33,028 nt of DNA, taken from contig JAISCD010000117.1 in NCBI GenBank assembly GCA_031265825.1, positions 1 through 33,028 of the forward strand, written 5' to 3'. This document shows, piece by piece, positions 5,996-32,838 of the stretch; within the stretch, counting starts at the first letter, position 1; each line of letters starts with the position of its first letter. The translations under genes and the position numbers were made by a program. This stretch comes from Treponema sp. Lineage in GTDB: Bacteria > Spirochaetota > Spirochaetia > Treponematales > Breznakiellaceae. The notes under the pieces were generated by a model. That model had not been told where the DNA came from. It worked only from the letters and a program-made list of their open reading frames with translations, and made no database searches.

Positions 5996-6790
5996 AAAGC
6001 CTGTTTAACGACTTCCCAACGATAAGTCGGTATCTGATACCGCCCGCCCCGTCTCCGCTGTGTCTCTGACACCGCCCCGTAAGCCGCCGCCGCGTCCACC
6101 TGCGCCGCCTCAGACACCGCCGCCTCGCCTTCGTGTCTGACACCGACCCGTGAGCCGCCTTCGCAACGCGCCTCTGACACCAGCCTGTGAGCCGCCGCTC
6201 CGCCTTCGTATCTGACACCGCCCGCCGTGTCTCTGACACCGCCCCGCGCCGCCGCCTTCGCAATATGTCTGACACCGCCGTCCTGCCTTCATGTCTGACA
6301 CCGCTCGCCGTGTCTCTGACACCGCCGCTCCGCCCCCGTGTCCGCCGCCGTCCGCCACCGCCTTCGTGTCTGACATCGACCCGTGAGCCACCTTCGCAAC
6401 ACGTCTAACGCCTCTGACACCACGCCGCCGCCCTGCTTTCGTGTCTGACACCGACCCGTGATCCTTCGCAACGTAACACGTCTGACACCGCCGCCGTCCT
6501 GCCTTCGTGTCTGACACCACCGCCTCGCCTTCGTGTCAGACACCGCCCTATGAGCCGCCCGTGTCTCATCCGCGGTGTCTGACACCACGCCCACGCTGCG
6601 CCCCGCCTTCGATGCCTGACACCGCCGCGCCGATACCGTGTCTCCGTCCGCTGTGTCTGACATCGCCCCCGCACATCTGACACCGCCGCGCCGCCACACG
6701 TCAGTGTCTCTGACACCGCCGCGCCGATACCGTGTCTCTGTCCGTTGTGTCTGACACCGCGCCCTGCCGCCCCACGCCCTCGTGCCTGAC
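5996..6790. repeat. Dense array of GTGTCTGACACC palindromic repeats
   Basis: About two dozen copies of a TCTGACACC core (often GTGTCTGACACCGCC, sometimes reversed as TCAGACACC) lie in about 780 bp. They are separated by 10-50 bp of GC-rich, partly repeated filler such as GCCTTCGTGTC and GTGAGCCGCC. The core is an odd-centred palindrome: GGTGT and ACACC can pair around CTG. Several long minus-strand frames (Ser-Asp-Thr and Arg/Gly-rich) result only from the repeat. The left end begins with AAGCCTGTTTAACGACTTC, a piece of the long dispersed repeat, five bases after the ATPase stop. No gene seen. Confidence 0.9.
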
Positions 6791-7141: not shown

Positions 7142-7248
7142 GTAGGATCAGTACTATACCAATACAGACAAACCCGCAAACGCGCGGGCGTTCTCATTCC
7201 AGCAAGGGCGCGGAAGGCTTCTCGTCCAGACGCTTTATGCGCGGGATT

Positions 7249-7458
7249 CAGGCTTTAAATTCATGGAGTCAGGTTTTGAATTCATTGAGTCAGCTTTTAA
7301 ATTCATAGAGTCAAACTTTGAATTCATAGAGTCAAGTTTTGAATTCATAGAGTCAAGTTTTGAATTCATGGAGTCAAGTTTTGAATTCATGGAGTCAGGT
7401 TTTAAATTCATAGAGTCAGGTTTTAAATTCATAGAGTCAGACTTTGAATTCATAGAGT
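7249..7458. repeat. 21-bp minisatellite B (10 units)
   Basis: Ten uninterrupted units of exactly 21 bp, consensus CAAGTTTTGAATTCATAGAGT. The array is open in a frame on both strands (heptads like SSFEFIE on plus, MNSKLDS on minus) but has no ribosome site or plausible start. It ends 13 bp before the Shine-Dalgarno sequence of the gene at 7480, so it forms that gene's 5' leader. Confidence 0.95.
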
Positions 7459-9265: not shown

Positions 9266-9306
9266 AGAAGAAGCCGTCCGGGGGTAAGCCGGGCGGCTCT
9301 TCTTTT
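9266..9306 (+). terminator. Rho-independent terminator of the lipoprotein gene
   Basis: AGAAGAAGCCGTCCGG pairs with CCGGGCGGCTCTTCT around a GGGTAAG loop, followed by TTTT. Near-identical hairpins preceded by the same GAGCAAAGGAAG lead-in stand downstream of the genes at 28772 and 30493. Confidence 0.9.
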
Positions 9307-9789
9307 AGCGCAAGGGTGTCAGACAAATAGCAATGAGCAAAGAGCAATTAGTAATGAGCAAAGGAAGACCAGCGGCAGATTTCGCACGCGAGGCGGGGTG
9401 CAGGCGCGGTGTCTGACACCGTAACAAGGGGCGGAGTTAGAGTCGGTGTCTGACAAAGTCGCAGAAGTTAAAAAAGGTTTTTAATGGTAGCCAATAGAAC
9501 TTGCAGAGCAAGCTTTCCTGCACATCCAACAATATAGCTTTCAGAGCTGGAATAATATCCATGATTCTTTATTTGCTTTACTTCTTTTACTTCGCGGTCT
9601 CATAATATTTTTGATAATATTTTAAATATACCTTGTTTATATTTTATTTTTATTATAAAATATAATAAATGGTTGGAAAAAGACGGCGTAACATTTAGCC
9701 GCGAAGACGATGGGAGAAGCCGAGATATTTACGATTTAATTTAATCGCCCGCTTTTTGAAAACCTTTATAATTTATTTTTGGAGGCTTT
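9307..9789. other. Intergenic region with repeats and an AT-rich segment
   Basis: 9316-9450 holds several TCTGACA or TCAGACA cores, including the perfect CGGTGTCTGACACCG at about 9406, and AGCAAAGAGCAAT-like short repeats. From about 9480 the sequence is AT-rich. A stop-free plus-strand frame 9565-9744 ends in a protein-like stretch (WLEKDGVTFSREDDG...) but has no start or ribosome site, so a gene remnant is possible but unproven. No clear promoter for ppdK is seen; TATAAT lies at about 9765. Confidence 0.5.
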
Positions 9790-12700
9790 ATGCTTAAACA
9801 AAAAAACATTTATTTCTTCGGCGATAAAAACGCGAATGGAGAAATATATGCCGAAGGTACCGCCGATATGAAGGATATTCTCGGCGGTAAAGGCGCTAAT
9901 TTGGCGGAAATGACGAATCTCGGTATTCCTGTTCCGCCCGGTTTCACTATTTCTATAGAGGTGTGCGACGCTTTTTATAAACTCAGAAAGAAATACCCTG
10001 AGGGTTTCGACAAAGATGTTCAGAAGAGTTTAAAAAGACTAGAGCGGGCGCAGGGGAAAAGATTGGGCGATCCAAAAGACCCGCTTCTTGTTTCGGTACG
10101 CTCAGGCGCTCCTGTTTCTATGCCCGGCATGATGGACACTATTCTGAACCTCGGCATAAACGACAGGGCGGTTAATGGATTATCGGAAAAAACAAAAAAT
10201 CCCCGCTTCGCCTGGGACGCTTACCGCCGCTTTATTCAAATGTACGGAAACGTCGTTTTAGGAATCGACCACGCGAAATTTGAGGAAGCAATAAAGGCGA
10301 TAAAAGCCGAGAAAAATATCGTCTATGACAAGGATTTAACAGCGGAAGATTTAGAGTGCTTAGTCGACGATTATAAGGAAATTGTACTCGAAAATACAGG
10401 AAGAGATTTTCCTCAAAATCCAATCGATCAATTATGGGGTGCCATTGGCGCGGTATTCGGTTCGTGGAATAATGAGCGCGCTATAAAATACCGCGAAATT
10501 GAAAACATCAAAAATATAAAAGGTACCGCGGTAAATGTACAGTCAATGGTATTCGGTAATATGGGCGAAGCTTCCGGTACCGGCGTGTGTTTTAGCAGAA
10601 ACGCCTCAACCGGCGAAAAGATTTTTGACGGCGAATATTTGATGAACGCTCAAGGCGAAGATGTTGTCGCAGGTATCCGCACTCCAGAAAAAATCGCCAC
10701 GCTGGAAGAAAGAAACAAAAAGATTTATAAACAATTAGTAAAAATTAAAAATGATTTGGAAAAACATTTCCACGATATGCAAGATATTGAATTCACCGTT
10801 CAAGAGGGGAAATTGTTCTTATTGCAGACCCGCAACGGTAAACGCTCAGGCGCAGCTGCGGTCAAAATCGCGGTTGATATGGTCAAGGAAAAGCTCATCG
10901 ACAAAGAAACCGCAATCAAGCGCATAACCGCGGAACTTCTCGACCAAGTCCTGCATCCTATCATTAAGGCGGATGCTCTCAAAAAGGCTGTTCTGTTGAC
11001 ACATGGTATCGACGCATCTCCGGGCGCGGGGCGCGGACGTATTGTCTTCTCCGCTTACGAAGCCGAAGAATGGAACGAGCGCGGCGAAAGAGTCTTGCTC
11101 GTGCGGCAGGATACTAGTCCTGAAGACATCGGCGGTATGGTCGCATCACAGGGTATTCTTACCTCTACCGGTGGACGTACAAGCCACGCGGCAGTTGTCG
11201 CCCGTCAGCTCGGAACGCCGTGTATCTGCGGCGCAAAAGACATCGCCATCACCGATAAACAGGTAGTCATTGGCGAAAAGACTTTCAACGAGGGCGACTG
11301 GATAACCATCGACGGCTCAACCGGCAACGTCTACGAAGGACAGCTCGAATTAGTCGCGCCGGAAATTACAGGAGAAGTACAGACATTCATGAGTTGGTGC
11401 GACGACGTCCGCTCTAAATCTGTCCGTAATACCCCGACAGGCTCTATCAGAGGCTTTGATGTGCGGGCAAACGCGGACTTACCCGACCAAGCTAAACGCG
11501 CCTTTGACTTCGGCGCTCAAGGAGTTGGTCTTTGCAGGACCGAACATATGTTCTTCGACAAGGCTAAACTGATTCACTTCCGCGCCATGATCGCCGCAGA
11601 TTCCGAAGAAGAACGCAAAACAGCTCTGCAAAAGATTCTTCCACTACAGAAGAGTGACTTCTATGGCATATTCAAGGCTATGGAAGGACGACCTGTTATC
11701 ATCCGTCTGCTCGACCCGCCCCTCCACGAATTCGTTCCGCATACACCAGAGGAAGTTCAGGAACTTGCTGAGTATATGGGCGTTCCGGTCGAGACGCTTC
11801 AGCCTAAACTCGACAAACTCAAAGAGCAAAACCCTATGCTTGGGCATCGCGGTTGCCGCCTCGCGGTAACGTATCCAGAAATCTATGATATGCAAGTAGA
11901 AGCTATTGCTCTTGCCGCGGTTGAGTGTATTAAAGAAAAGATTCAGGTGAATCCAGAGATCATGATTCCCATCGTAATAACGGCAAGGGAACTGCGGCTC
12001 TTAAAGCCTCATGCACAAATGGTATTGCAGCGCGTTTTTAGCGAGGCTGGTATCAAGAAACCGCCAAAAGTGAAAATTGGTACCATGATTGAAGTACCAA
12101 GAGCCGCCATTCGCGCTGGACATATCGCCCAATACGCGGATTTCTTCAGTTTTGGTACCAATGACCTTACCCAAATGACGTTTGCCTTTAGCCGCGATGA
12201 CGTGGCTTCATTCCTGCCGTCCTATCTGAAAACACAGGAAGTCGTGGACTCAAGGGGTAATGTAAAAAAACAACCTGTGCTTGACGTTGATCCGTTCAAA
12301 TCTATCGACGAGGAAGGCGTAGGTTTTCTCATTGACTATGCAACCAAAGCAGGACATGGACAAAATCCAGACCTCAAGGTCGGTATCTGTGGTGAACATG
12401 GAGGTGATCCCAAAACCATTGATTTCTGCTATCGTGTCGGATTGAATTATGTGTCCTGCTCCCCATTCCGTGTGCCGCTTGCGCGTCTCGCGGGCGCTCA
12501 GGCAGTCATTAAAAACAGAACGGTAGTGGAGGAGTTTCCCAAAACGCCGGCTTCAAAGCCTGAACGCAAACGTAAAGCTACCCAAATTACGCAACCCGTA
12601 ACCTCAGCAAGGAAAAGAGGACGCCCTAGAATTAACGCGGTCAAAGTAAGCCAGAACGAAGTGGACTTTGTGGAGAAAAATACAGCGGTGGTTGCTGGAG

Positions 12701-12879
12701 TCGTTAAGAAACGCGGTCGTCCTGCGAAAGCCGTAAACGTCAATGCGAGCCTCGTAGCCGCCGTCGCCGAAAATGTCAAGAAGCGCGGACGCAAAAAATC
12801 GGAAGCCATTCAGGAAACTGTTGTCGAAACCCCTATTCCAATCAAGAGAAAAAGAGGCAGACCGGCAAAAAACAAATAA
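9790..12879 (+). CDS. ppdK: Pyruvate, phosphate dikinase with AT-hook-like C-terminal tail
   Basis: Interconverts pyruvate, ATP and Pi with PEP, AMP and PPi in the cytoplasm; in many anaerobes it serves glycolysis or gluconeogenesis. The N-terminal nucleotide-binding part begins GGKGANLAEMTNLGIPVPPG (about 34-53). The phosphohistidine swivel motif GGRTSHAAVVARQLGTPC contains His466, and the PEP-binding TIM barrel ends with GICGEHGGDP (Cys867). The enzyme body ends near residue 905, the usual PPDK size. Then comes an extra tail of about 124 residues with four KRGRP-type AT-hook motifs: RKRGRPR (941-947), KKRGRPAK (973-980), KKRGRKK (997-1003) and KRKRGRPAK (1019-1027). These are separated by Val/Ala/Asn/Glu-rich linkers. 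GGAGG lies five bases before the ATG. The enzyme call is firm; DNA binding by the tail is inference. Confidence 0.97.
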   Translation: MLKQKNIYFFGDKNANGEIYAEGTADMKDILGGKGANLAEMTNLGIPVPPGFTISIEVCDAFYKLRKKYPEGFDKDVQKSLKRLERAQGKRLGDPKDPLLVSVRSGAPVSMPGMMDTILNLGINDRAVNGLSEKTKNPRFAWDAYRRFIQMYGNVVLGIDHAKFEEAIKAIKAEKNIVYDKDLTAEDLECLVDDYKEIVLENTGRDFPQNPIDQLWGAIGAVFGSWNNERAIKYREIENIKNIKGTAVNVQSMVFGNMGEASGTGVCFSRNASTGEKIFDGEYLMNAQGEDVVAGIRTPEKIATLEERNKKIYKQLVKIKNDLEKHFHDMQDIEFTVQEGKLFLLQTRNGKRSGAAAVKIAVDMVKEKLIDKETAIKRITAELLDQVLHPIIKADALKKAVLLTHGIDASPGAGRGRIVFSAYEAEEWNERGERVLLVRQDTSPEDIGGMVASQGILTSTGGRTSHAAVVARQLGTPCICGAKDIAITDKQVVIGEKTFNEGDWITIDGSTGNVYEGQLELVAPEITGEVQTFMSWCDDVRSKSVRNTPTGSIRGFDVRANADLPDQAKRAFDFGAQGVGLCRTEHMFFDKAKLIHFRAMIAADSEEERKTALQKILPLQKSDFYGIFKAMEGRPVIIRLLDPPLHEFVPHTPEEVQELAEYMGVPVETLQPKLDKLKEQNPMLGHRGCRLAVTYPEIYDMQVEAIALAAVECIKEKIQVNPEIMIPIVITARELRLLKPHAQMVLQRVFSEAGIKKPPKVKIGTMIEVPRAAIRAGHIAQYADFFSFGTNDLTQMTFAFSRDDVASFLPSYLKTQEVVDSRGNVKKQPVLDVDPFKSIDEEGVGFLIDYATKAGHGQNPDLKVGICGEHGGDPKTIDFCYRVGLNYVSCSPFRVPLARLAGAQAVIKNRTVVEEFPKTPASKPERKRKATQITQPVTSARKRGRPRINAVKVSQNEVDFVEKNTAVVAGVVKKRGRPAKAVNVNASLVAAVAENVKKRGRKKSEAIQETVVETPIPIKRKRGRPAKNK

Positions 12880-12886
12880 CGCTAAT

Positions 12887-12937
12887 ATTTTCACAAGAAA
12901 TACGAATTCCTTTATAATTCATGTTTCTTGTGAAAAT
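12887..12937 (+). terminator. Inverted repeat after ppdK, possible terminator
   Basis: A perfect 14-bp inverted repeat, ATTTTCACAAGAAA (12887-12900) with TTTCTTGTGAAAAT (12924-12937), begins eight bases after the ppdK stop. It lacks an immediate U run, so it may terminate transcription weakly or protect the 3' end. It could also be the end of an inserted element. Confidence 0.5.
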
Positions 12938-13254
12938 GGCGATGTTTCTTTTTTCTTGATAATTTTTGTAAGCGTTGTAATATACAATATATCGGGAATA
13001 AAAAATGGTCAAATATTTCATTTAAAAACTTCGATGATTATAGAAAATCTTTCTTTTCCAACATTAACGATCGAGCTTAATGGAGTTATTCAAACCGCTC
13101 TGAAAAACTGTTTGAGGATATATTTAATGTACAGGAAAAAATAAAGTTTATTATTTTTATTCACGTTGTCGCAGAGACAAAAACGGAATCCATATCCAAG
13201 ATGATAAACATAACGCTTTCATGTAAAACAGACTCTCAAGCATATTACCAATAA
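12934..13254 (+). pseudogene. Possible broken gene with an in-frame stop
   Basis: One plus-strand frame is open from 12934 to 13254 except for a single TAA at 13078. It reads like protein on both sides: FCKRCNIQYIGNKKWSNI before the stop, and RSEKLFEDIFNVQEKIKF then HVVAETKTESISK after it. It has no start codon with a ribosome site and sits between ppdK and the tRNA terminator. The competing frame ending at 13144 is less protein-like. The family is not recognised; the AT-rich composition suggests foreign origin. Chance openness in AT-rich DNA cannot be excluded. Confidence 0.3.
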
Positions 13255-16660: not shown

Positions 16661-16827
16661 GTTCCTAGAGAATGGACATTGGGTCTCTGAGAGTGGACGT
16701 CGGGTCTCTGAGAGTAGATGTCGGGTCTTTGAGAGAGAAAATTGGCTCTCGGAGAGCCGAAATCGGGTCTTTTAGAGAGGACCTTGGTTCTCAGAGAATC
16801 GAAGTTGGGTCTCAAAGAACCGACATT
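16661..16827. repeat. 21-bp minisatellite C (about 8 units)
   Basis: Seven full 21-bp units start at 16681, 16702, 16723, 16744, 16765, 16786 and 16807, with a partial unit before. Consensus GGGTCTCTGAGAGTGGACGTC, diverged between units. The minus strand is open (heptads like RPDVHSQ) but lacks a ribosome site. The array sits between the lipoprotein and the permease genes; the rest of 16528-16958 shows no gene. Confidence 0.9.
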
Positions 16828-22738: not shown

Positions 22739-23345
22739 CCGTCAGGAGTTTTTGAAAATCGTCAGGAGACTTCTAAAAACCTTCAAGAGTTTTCAAAAAA
22801 CCAGCAAGAGCCTTCAGAAAGCCGTCAAGAGCCTTCCAAAAATCATCAAGAGTTTTTCTAAAATCGTCAAGAGATTTTTAAAAATCATGCGGGAGATTTT
22901 CCAAAATGATCAAGAGTTTTTTAAAAATCATACGGCGTTTTCTGAAAATCGTCAGGAGACTTCAGAAAGCCATCAAGAGTTTTCCGAAAGCCAGCAAGAG
23001 CCTTCTGGAAGTAGTCAAGAGCCTTCCAAAAATCATCAAGAGATTTTCTAAAATCGTCAAGAGATTTTTAAAAATCATACGGGAGATTTTATAAAATGAT
23101 CAAGAGTTTTTTAAAAATCATACGGCGTTTTTTAAAAATGATACGGAGATTTCAGAAAGCTATCAAGAGCCTTCAGAAAGCCGTCAAGAGTTTTCCAAAA
23201 GCCAGCAAGAGCCTTCTGAAAGCCGTCAAGAGTTTTTCTAAAATCGTCAAGAGATTTTTAAAAATCATGCGGGAGATTTTATAAAATGATAAAGAGATTT
23301 TTAAAAATCATACGGCGTTTTTTAAAAATGATACGGAGATTTTGA
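22739..23345. repeat. 21-bp minisatellite D (about 29 units) with a nine-unit higher-order repeat
   Basis: About 28 full units and a partial one, mostly 21 bp with three of 22 bp, consensus near CGTCAAGAGTTTTCCGAAAAT. A five-unit series recurs every nine units (about 189-192 bp; near 22857, 23049 and 23238), showing block duplication. The plus strand is open over stretches (heptads like SKNHQEF), but the frame shifts at 22-bp units and no ribosome site is seen. AT-rich, between the HU-HIG promoter and the gltB terminator. Confidence 0.95.
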
Positions 23346-28370: not shown

Positions 28371-28409
28371 GTCTCCAGCCCGCAGAGCGGTCTTCCGCCA
28401 CCCCCGCCC

Positions 28410-28675
28410 CGCGTGTCTGACCCCGCGCCGCCGCCCCGCGCGTCTGACCCCGGCGGGCGTGCCTGACCCCGGCGGGCGTGCCTGACACCAGCGGGCGTGC
28501 CTGACACCAGCGTGCCTGACACCAGCGTGCCTGACACTAGCGCGTCTGACACTAGCGCGTCTGACACCGGCGGGCGTGCCGACCAGCGTGTCTGACATCT
28601 GCGTGCCTGACCCCAGCGTGTCTGAAGCGGTGTGTCTGACACCGTGCCGTCGCCCCGTGTGCCTGACCCCGACTT
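28410..28675. repeat. Second dense array of the palindromic repeat, GTGCCTGACACC/TCTGACCCC variants
   Basis: About fourteen cores, CCTGACACC, TCTGACACC, TCTGACACT or CTGACCCC, joined by short AGCGTG or GGCGGGCGTG linkers, so the spacing is much tighter than in the 5996-6790 array. Minus-strand open frames (Val-Arg-His-Ala repeats) are repeat translations only. Confidence 0.88.
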
Positions 28676-29605: not shown

Positions 29606-29647
29606 GACACCTGCGTAACAGGCGGTGTTTGAAGTGCCGCTGTCGTA

Positions 29648-29962
29648 ACGCCGATAAGATCAGCCGCTACGCCGATAAGATCAGCCGCTACGCCTGTAAG
29701 ATCAGACACAACGCCTGTAAGATCAGCGGCAACGCCTGTAAGATCAGCGGCAACGCCGATAAGATCAGACACAACGCCGATAAGATCAGCGGCAACACCG
29801 ATAAGATCAGACACAACGCCGATAAGATCAGCGGCAACGCCTGTAAGATCAGCGGCAACACCGATAAGATCAGGCGCAACGCCGATAAGATCAGACACAA
29901 CGCCAACAAGATCAGCGGCTACGCCAATAAGATCAGCGGCAACGCCGATAAGATCAGCGGCA
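29648..29962. repeat. 21-bp minisatellite E (15 units)
   Basis: Fifteen uninterrupted 21-bp units, consensus ACGCCGATAAGATCAGCGGCA. Variants CTGT for CGAT and GACACA for GCGGCA are shuffled between units. The frames are open on both strands (heptads NADKISG on plus, GVAADLI on minus) but have no plausible start. Four units contain TCAGACAC, a piece of the palindromic repeat. Confidence 0.95.
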
Positions 29963-29989
29963 ACGCCGTGAGCGGGATGGGCTTATTCG

Positions 29990-30492: not shown

Positions 30493-32838
30493 CTATTCCC
30501 ATCCGCCTGCGGAGCCGCTTACCTTGCTGTCCAGCCTAACGCCGGACCCCGCCGTGCTATTGCGCTTCTTGGCAGGCGAATTAGCGACATAGACCGCGTA
30601 TCCGTAATCGTTGCCGTTAATCGCGGTATTCCTCAGCGTACTACTTGCGTCTGACCCGTAAATGATCCCGCCCGCCTGCTTGGTAAACGTCCCGCTACCG
30701 ACCACAACCACCCCGCCGCCGACGTTAGAAGCTGAATTACCACTGATCGTCCCGCCGCTCAGCGTAAACGTAGCATTATTGTTCACATTCACCCCGCCGC
30801 CCTCTTTGGCGGAATTACCGCTGATCGTCCCATTTTCCATCCTAAACGTCCCGCCGAGCACGAGCACCCCGCCGCCGTTGGAGGATGTCTTATTGCCGCT
30901 GATCGTCCCGCCGTTCTGCGTAAACGTAGCGTTAGTATTCACAAACACCCCGCCACCGACGTTAGATGCGGAATTGCCGCTGATTTCACCGCCGCTCTGC
31001 GTAAACGTAGCGTTAGTGCCCACATTCACCCCGCCACCACTACCGCTGGTGGAATTGCCACTGATCGTCCCATTTTCCATCCTAAATATCCCGCCGACCA
31101 CAATCACCCCGCCGCCGTTGACGGATGCCTTATTACCGCTGATTTCCCCGCTGGTCATCGTAAACGTAGCGTTAGTGTACACATACACCCCGCCACCAGC
31201 TTGAGAAGCGGAATTGCCGCTGATAATCCCGCTGGTCATCGTAAACGTAGCGTTAGTGTGCACAAGCACCCCGCCGCCGCTACCGGTGGCGTTATTGCCG
31301 CTGATCGTCCCGTTTTCTATCCTAAATATCCCGCCGACCACATGCACCCCGCCGCCATCTTGAGAAGCTGAATTGCCACTGATCGTCCCGCCGCTTAGCG
31401 TAAACGTAGCGTTAGTGTTCACATTCACCCCACCGCCATTTTTGGTGGCGTTATTGCCGCTGATCGTCCCGTTTTCCATCCTAAATATCCCACCGACCAC
31501 AATCACCCCGCCGCCGTTGACGGATGCCTTATTGCCGCTGATTTCCCCGCCGCTCTGCGTAAACGTAGCGTTAGTGTTCAAATACACCCCGCCGCCGCTA
31601 CCGGTGGTGGAATTGCCACTGATCTTCGAGCCGCTTTCCATCACCAGCGCGCCGCCTCCATTCACCCGTATCAACGAAGCCGTATTGCTACTCCGTCCTT
31701 GCAAGGTAACATTGTTTCCCAGAGTCAGTGTTACACCATTTCCTACAGTAAAGAGCGAACCGTCCGAACTCAAGCTAACCCTCCGCTCCGCGGCTCCTCC
31801 GTCAAGGGTTACGCTCACCTTCTTTCCACCGTACAAAAGCGTCTGCGGCGCGAGGTTCTCGTTGTTCTTTAAAGTAACCGTATACACGTCGCCTTCTCCC
31901 GCGTTGTTTGCGATCCACGTCAACGCTTGGGCAAGCGATAAATCGGCAGGGATGCTCATACTTATCGCTACCCCGGTCAATTCTTGCGTAAGAAGCCGCA
32001 TCGCCGTTATACCGCTGTCCAACGTTTGATAATCAACTGACCCGCCTACTACCTGCGCCCCGGATTCGAGGTTGATGATCGCCGCATTGAACATATTCTG
32101 GTCGCCCAACCGCCGCGCCGCAATCGACAGCACGAGCCGCGGATTATCCCCTTTGCCTATGTCTACCATGTTTTCGTCCGCGGTGATCCCGCTCCCCTGG
32201 TTGTCGTATTCCGTCTGTACCTGTTCCAGCGTCGCAGTGCGCGGATACACAGCGTACTTCCGACTCCTGATGAGATTGATGGACAAGATTTGCGCCAGCG
32301 TATCCGCGACCCGCGCGTCTATATCCCTGCCCAACTGCACAGGCGTTACCGCCAACTTTTCCAACCGCGAAACGTCTATCTTTGTCGCCTCAATGATCTT
32401 CTGTACCATGTCAGGCAGTTTGTTTTGTATCTCCCGTATATTCACGTAGGTCTGAACGTCCCCCGCGACCTGACGCAGATCGTCTATCTTCAAGATCGCA
32501 ATAGTCAGAAGGTTTTGATTGCCCAACTTGCCGATGTTGCCCGCGACTATGTAGTTCGCGCCGAGTTGCTTCCCGATAGCCATGATGGTATCGGGGTCCG
32601 TCATGCCCGCGTCTGCTTGGAACTTCCACTCGCTCCCGATAGCCCGCGTGATGCTCGTGCGTGGAATGGGCGTGAATACCGCGTTTAATTCACGGTTGAA
32701 CGAGAACAACTCCGCTATGGTCTCGCCTTCCTCCTCCGTGCCGCCGGTAAACGGCAACACAGCGAGGTTGTCTTTTGCAAACACCGCGCCCGCAACCGCA
32801 AGCGCCAATAATACAACCGCCAATTTCCTAAAAATCAT
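30493..32838 (-). CDS. Exported protein: CsgG/LpoB-like N-terminal region fused to beta-helix repeats
   Basis: 781 residues from the ATG at 32838, chosen because GGAGG lies five bases before it and MIFRKLAVVLLALAVAGAVFA is a clean signal peptide. The longer open frame to 33021 has none of these. Residues about 22-320 contain NLAVLPF and two related alpha/beta parts (GKQLGANYIVAGNIGK; LVLSIAARRLGDQNMF), reminiscent of CsgG/LpoB-type periplasmic domains (inference). Residues about 380-440 form a first beta-helix rung set (VTLTLGNNVTLQG). Then about twelve repeats of 26-27 residues follow the pattern G-x-ISGN-xA-xx-GGGV-x-V-x-NATFT-x-SG, alternating with VVGGIFRMENG-type rungs. This is the parallel beta-helix pattern of surface adhesins. 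The repeats are almost identical in DNA sequence. The C-terminus (KVSGSAGGWE) has no membrane anchor. Confidence 0.88.
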   Translation of the reverse strand: MIFRKLAVVLLALAVAGAVFAKDNLAVLPFTGGTEEEGETIAELFSFNRELNAVFTPIPRTSITRAIGSEWKFQADAGMTDPDTIMAIGKQLGANYIVAGNIGKLGNQNLLTIAILKIDDLRQVAGDVQTYVNIREIQNKLPDMVQKIIEATKIDVSRLEKLAVTPVQLGRDIDARVADTLAQILSINLIRSRKYAVYPRTATLEQVQTEYDNQGSGITADENMVDIGKGDNPRLVLSIAARRLGDQNMFNAAIINLESGAQVVGGSVDYQTLDSGITAMRLLTQELTGVAISMSIPADLSLAQALTWIANNAGEGDVYTVTLKNNENLAPQTLLYGGKKVSVTLDGGAAERRVSLSSDGSLFTVGNGVTLTLGNNVTLQGRSSNTASLIRVNGGGALVMESGSKISGNSTTGSGGGVYLNTNATFTQSGGEISGNKASVNGGGVIVVGGIFRMENGTISGNNATKNGGGVNVNTNATFTLSGGTISGNSASQDGGGVHVVGGIFRIENGTISGNNATGSGGGVLVHTNATFTMTSGIISGNSASQAGGGVYVYTNATFTMTSGEISGNKASVNGGGVIVVGGIFRMENGTISGNSTSGSGGGVNVGTNATFTQSGGEISGNSASNVGGGVFVNTNATFTQNGGTISGNKTSSNGGGVLVLGGTFRMENGTISGNSAKEGGGVNVNNNATFTLSGGTISGNSASNVGGGVVVVGSGTFTKQAGGIIYGSDASSTLRNTAINGNDYGYAVYVANSPAKKRNSTAGSGVRLDSKVSGSAGGWE

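Follow-up and report, generated by a model that had tools for sequence, protein, structure and literature searches.

An AT-hook or H1-like polycationic tail on treponemal PPDK that probably ties the enzyme to DNA or another polyanion

The window, i.e. the whole stretch of 33,028 nt of Treponema sp. DNA analysed here, derives from a genome of 1.8 Mb that is 57 % complete, and harbours a plus-strand open reading frame for pyruvate phosphate dikinase (PPDK), a sugar-metabolism enzyme, at positions 9790–12879 that translates to 1029 aa. The enzyme body comprises residues 1–910 (9790–12519, plus strand), as delimited by Pfam domains, alignment to solved chains, invariant residues and the predicted fold. 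It displays the three-domain architecture of a PPDK, with a swivelling His, containing PPDK_N, PEP-utilizers and PEP-utilizers_C in Pfam (ATP-grasp, phosphohistidine and PEP-binding), the last of these domains spanning residues 547–904. Both the catalytic His region, GGRTSHAAVVARQ, and the Cys region, GICGEHGGDP, are present, and H466 and C867 are invariant amongst the 32 sequences compared. Solved PPDK chains from Clostridium symbiosum (9pzl and 1kbl) share this same body, aligning to residues 20–910, with the final residue of the C. symbiosum chain (874 of 874) falling at window residue 910, exactly where the tail of the window protein begins. AlphaFold similarly gives a confident body to residue 908, with a last helix at 892–908. 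Judged from its sequence, the window PPDK is a complete and presumably working enzyme up to residue 910, and the reading of an earlier note, that a full enzyme is followed in frame by a tail, is confirmed by the open reading frame, Pfam and the solved-chain alignment. Directly after the stop codon lies a hairpin with a U-rich run (12880–12955, plus strand; fold −25.1 kcal/mol, z −6.48), which is a probable intrinsic terminator and would make the tail the 3′ end of the ppdK transcript. A simple consensus terminator scan did not list this hairpin, although the fold shows it clearly.

The tail proper covers residues 911–1029 (12520–12876, plus strand), and is thus 119 aa long, or 124 aa when counting starts at residue 906. 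It lies past the end of solved PPDKs, carries a net charge of about +20 and has AlphaFold pLDDT values below 50 across residues 912–1029, so that it is predicted to be disordered. Within it, four motifs sit at exactly the residues given in the earlier note: RKRGRPR (residues 941–947, 12610–12630), KKRGRPAK (973–980, 12706–12729), the AT-hook-like KKRGRKK (997–1003, 12778–12798) and KRKRGRPAK (1019–1027, 12844–12870), all on the plus strand. Shuffling of the C-terminal 125 residues yielded three or more RGR[PK] motifs in none of 200,000 trials, compared with the four observed. The RGR[PK] units are written with four different codon spellings, AGAGGACGCCCT, CGCGGTCGTCCT, CGCGGACGCAAA and AGAGGCAGACCG, which points to selection at the protein level. 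Three stretches of the tail match the Pfam AT-hook family (PF02178), at 19.5 bits against a curated cut-off of 17.4; the tail matches AT_hook alone and not HC2 (PF07382), and G000 gave no HC2 match. AT-hooks are a minor-groove DNA motif; the view that PPDK here bears a genuine AT-hook-type tail is supported, and such a tail is absent from PPDKs of solved structure.

With regard to the distribution of such tails, the C-termini of window-type PPDKs were taken from the window's family, by inference termite-gut treponemes, and from two other families, the loci being mostly best-scoring hits rather than a random sample. A tail was scored where at least 15 residues extend past position 910; one locus whose tail state is unknown was left out of the count. 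On this basis, tails are found at 114 of 169 loci, made up of 94 of the 129 from the window's family, 20 of the 34 from the second and none of the 6 from the third. The occurrence of homologous tails in independent genomes also dispels the concern that the window tail is a misassembly. Whole clades of the window's family, amounting to 35 of its 129 loci, have lost or never had a tail, and it is therefore not essential. On a tree of 163 PPDK bodies, six changes suffice to explain tail presence and absence.

The tails themselves come in several forms. AT-hook arrays are found in the window genus (g1) and in g6, g13 and g15, mixed KKPGRPAAK arrays in g2 and g31, and pure H1-like PAKK or PKAKA arrays in g52, g54 and g68 of family f3. 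Across the 97 closed tails, K accounts for 29 % of residues, A for 27 % and P for 10 %, a composition that looks like that of an H1 C-terminal domain, with a median length of 104 residues and a median net charge of +30. A representative H1-like tail from g54 reaches 70.3 bits against HC2, above the cut-off of 40. By sequence comparison, the window tail belongs to a type of polycationic PPDK tail that extends across the order. When the tail alone was searched against 12 genomes of the window genus, matches were returned only at ppdK, the two exceptions being a contig-edge tail piece in G004 and a borderline match interrupted by stops in G010 (E 0.08). Within the reach of this search, a genome-wide fashion for such tails is disfavoured. 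A scan of the genome for RGRP-encoding DNA patterns was at chance (191 hits compared with 203 in the control) since Ser codons fit the pattern too, and is thus uninformative about other AT-hook proteins.

Tail length and repeat number vary widely between relatives, from 15 to over 290 aa, as might be expected were the tail a functionless read-through extension or a product of neutral repeat drift. This explanation is nevertheless scarcely credible. For 17 of 18 close pairs, tail dN/dS lies between 0.03 and 0.53, far below 1, with the corresponding bodies at 0.04–0.17; the window tail gives 0.27–0.41 against its near relatives. A single outlier pair, at 1.74, is short and has few changes. Whilst these values are rough, as repeats make the tail alignment uncertain, every one of the 97 closed tails is positively charged (+8 to +70), and tails recur on separate PPDK lineages. 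Patterns of substitution thus indicate that the tail is maintained by selection in many relatives.

Such recurrence is seen in a divergent PPDK lineage, 53–56 % identical, which sits on another branch in a second tree and bears K/A/P-rich tails at 13 of 14 loci, one of them with RGRGRP. In other phyla, the PPDK chain mostly stops shortly past the body; K-rich ends of approximately 14–40 residues do, however, occur on PPDKs of Ignavibacteria, Bacteroidota and one Phycisphaerales. Given tails in separate lineages and K-rich ends in other phyla, it is probable that a polycationic tail was gained more than once on this enzyme. No account of a PPDK tail was found in the open-licence papers searched. 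H1-like and AT-hook tails were already known from bacterial transcription factors and granule proteins; the polycationic tail described here sits instead on PPDK, a glycolytic enzyme, where it is widespread, under selection and was probably gained repeatedly, so that the finding reaches further than the earlier note had reported.

Amongst these known systems, CarD of the myxobacteria bears an AT-hook tail, or in some species an H1-like one (PMC4374960, PMC9304148). As in CarD of Myxococcus xanthus, the window protein joins a folded bacterial module to RGRP AT-hooks in a disordered C-terminal extension, and as in CarD orthologues an H1-like K/A/P-rich tail can take its place in relatives. CarD is a transcription factor whose chain includes an RNA polymerase-binding domain, whereas the folded part of PPDK is a metabolic enzyme. 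The H1-like KPAA tails of AlgP and PhaF from Pseudomonas bind DNA and position polyphosphate or PHA granules (PMC9239181). They resemble the H1-like tails on PPDKs of relatives, although AlgP and PhaF are granule-associated non-enzymes, and the window tail is composed of AT-hooks rather than KPAA repeats. A third parallel is chlamydial Hc2 (PF07382), the repeat number of which is reported to vary (PMC2848022). In relatives, both the H1-like tails and the free genes exceed the HC2 cut-off and are similarly variable in repeat number, but Hc2 is a stand-alone nucleoprotein and the window tail matches AT_hook instead.

The reading somewhat favoured here is that the PPDK tail is a selected, disordered, polyanion-binding module, most likely serving as a nucleoid tether. 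The interchange of AT-hook (KRGRP) and H1-like (PAKK) forms on one enzyme, as on myxobacterial CarD, would argue for bulk DNA or polyanion binding rather than site recognition. Four AT-hooks per chain, multiplied by the several chains of a PPDK oligomer, could provide multivalent DNA binding of low specificity. The tail itself, its motifs, predicted disorder, conservation, selection and phylogenetic spread, and the internal Shine–Dalgarno sites of relatives, are seen in the sequences; DNA binding, nucleoid localisation and a benefit are inferred. The earlier note had likewise suggested a tether to the nucleoid, and this is the best-supported function; its link to the AT-rich minisatellites of the window is without support. 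Because the tails of most relatives are H1-like and not of the AT-hook type, binding to specific AT-rich sites is unlikely as a common function.

Polycations have other binding partners as well, namely RNA, ribosomes, polyphosphate and membranes, and composition alone would permit any polyanion. Accordingly, the tail might bind RNA or ribosomes, or aid assembly or solubility, K-rich disordered tails being common on RNA-binding proteins. The RGRP core, flanked as it is by basic residues, nonetheless scores as an AT-hook, and its exchange for HC2-type tails has a counterpart in DNA-binding proteins, making this option quite improbable. Alternatively, the tail could bind polyphosphate rather than DNA and so bring a PPi-using enzyme to a phosphate store, in keeping with the association of H1-tailed AlgP with polyphosphate granules and with the presence of polyphosphate kinase in 149 of 200 family genomes. 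The kinase, however, occurs in tailed and tail-less lineages alike, and in just half of the window's genus (some genomes being incomplete), whilst AT-hooks are known for the minor groove of DNA. An association between the kinase and tail state was considered across the 200 family genomes and set aside, as no clear link emerged, and a polyphosphate-binding role is regarded as improbable.

One clade of relatives suggests a further role for the ppdK 3′ end. In this group of 42 rows (g2, g19, g28, g29, g31, g54 and kin), 35 have a tail in which an in-frame ATG is preceded by a strong Shine–Dalgarno (SD) sequence, defined as pairing with the anti-SD at a duplex energy of −8 or lower, compared with 2 of the 65 other tailed rows; the clade's rows are related, and so are not independent tests. 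The ATG lies 16–36 residues into the tail, as in AAAGGGGGACAAGAAG-ATGGCA, TAAGGAGGCTAAGAGA-ATGAGC and AAGGGAGGTACAGTCG-ATGAGT, with a predicted N-terminus of MAVTSAKKPAAKK or MSDAEKK. The mean duplex energy for 41 candidate tail ATGs is −9.7 kcal/mol, compared with −2.5 for 4,228 in-body ATGs, of which 2.1 % qualify as strong and only 0.2 % reach −10. Synonymous recodings average −5.7, and therefore part of the SD signal stems from the encoded peptide itself (KGDKKM); most observed sites are still amongst approximately the strongest 5 % of recodings. Two variants lend support, at the level of sequence, to a genuine internal start. In G153, GTG replaces ATG and the SD is retained. In G167 (locus L107), ppdK stops after a K-rich tail of its own, the linker persists as a relic in another frame, and an intact stand-alone HC2-like ORF (MAGKTTAKTAKKPAAKK...) with its own SD lies downstream, an arrangement that reads as a natural split of the fused gene. 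Initiation at the internal start could yield the tail as a separate HC2/H1-like protein, and a second product from ppdK is likely in this one clade.

Free HC2-like genes with an SD (MPEVKKSAAKKPAAKK...SSFPFF or similar) are also present in several tail-less genomes, that of G192 scoring 61.3 bits against HC2. In one tail-less clade, 10 of the 11 sampled genomes possess such a gene (G018, G077, G079, G083, G095, G096, G114, G120, G191 and G192), with the match in G079 containing stops and G115 having none. In another (G024–G029, G110 and others), a free HC2-like gene was not found. A rule by which the fused tail and a free HC2 gene strictly replace each other, whilst fitting the first of these clades, consequently fails in the second, and is also contradicted by tailed g54 genomes with further HC2-bearing proteins. 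In g54, H1-like arrays occur on several proteins: protein L334 of G150 (contig C4) joins an HC2-like N-terminal array to an uncharacterised domain (VDDSNVKFRNLFEAFSHG...), and frames of 287–336 aa with HC2 matches in other g54 genomes suggest a family like it.

One could propose from these data that the tail is chiefly a linker-histone-like nucleoid protein that happens to be encoded at the end of ppdK and is freed in the related clade through the internal start, with the fused copy being secondary. The concentration of strong-SD starts in one clade, their rank amongst recodings, the G153 and G167 variants and the free genes of tail-less genomes all favour this proposal. Set against it are the partial origin of the SD signal in the peptide, the relatedness of the rows and the tail-less clade that showed no free gene. 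In addition, no internal start is present in the window genus or in many further lineages with a tail, which thus keep the fusion without release. A start scan of the window tail that included non-ATG codons revealed no in-frame ATG, GTG or TTG with a strong SD, and neither an internal start nor a free HC2-like gene was found in the window genus; only the fused form is therefore expected in this lineage. On balance, a primarily stand-alone nucleoid protein is considered rather unlikely, and a tether for the enzyme itself is preferred.

As to why PPDK should be held at the nucleoid, a plausible reason is the consumption of PPi at polymerases. Family I soluble pyrophosphatase (PF00719) was found in none of the 200 family genomes, with controls positive in 9 of 14 cases. 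In organisms with PPi-based glycolysis, PPDK uses up PPi and yields ATP (PMC8863071). As these treponemes appear to be without the family I enzyme, and as PPDK can consume PPi, a nucleoid-held PPDK might act as a PPi sink and an ATP source where polymerases release PPi, and so could draw polymerisation forward and recover energy. The broader notion, that ppdK joins metabolism and chromosome packaging through nucleoid-held PPi recycling, plus a free H1-like product in one clade, is offered tentatively as a possibility. If true, it would tie PPi-based energy metabolism directly to the nucleoid in a way that can be tested. Across one bacterial order, ppdK occurs with and without a tail, with AT-hook or H1-like tails, with an internal start and as a split gene, a natural series that opens the function and evolution of linker-histone-like modules to experiment.

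Beyond ppdK, the window contains five tandem arrays, at 1553–1713, 7248–7458, 16668–16813, 22742–23343 and 29647–29968, which differ in unit sequence but whose periods are in every case 21 bp or a multiple of that length. Clusters of short interspersed GTCTGACACC-type repeats occur in GC-rich DNA at 6192–6740 and 28407–28643, with similar words near 303–409 and 9300–9460. A long imperfect repeat with periods of 81, 159, 240 and 399 bp is located at 30697–31624, within a minus-strand ORF of 842 aa that possibly encodes a repeat-rich surface protein.
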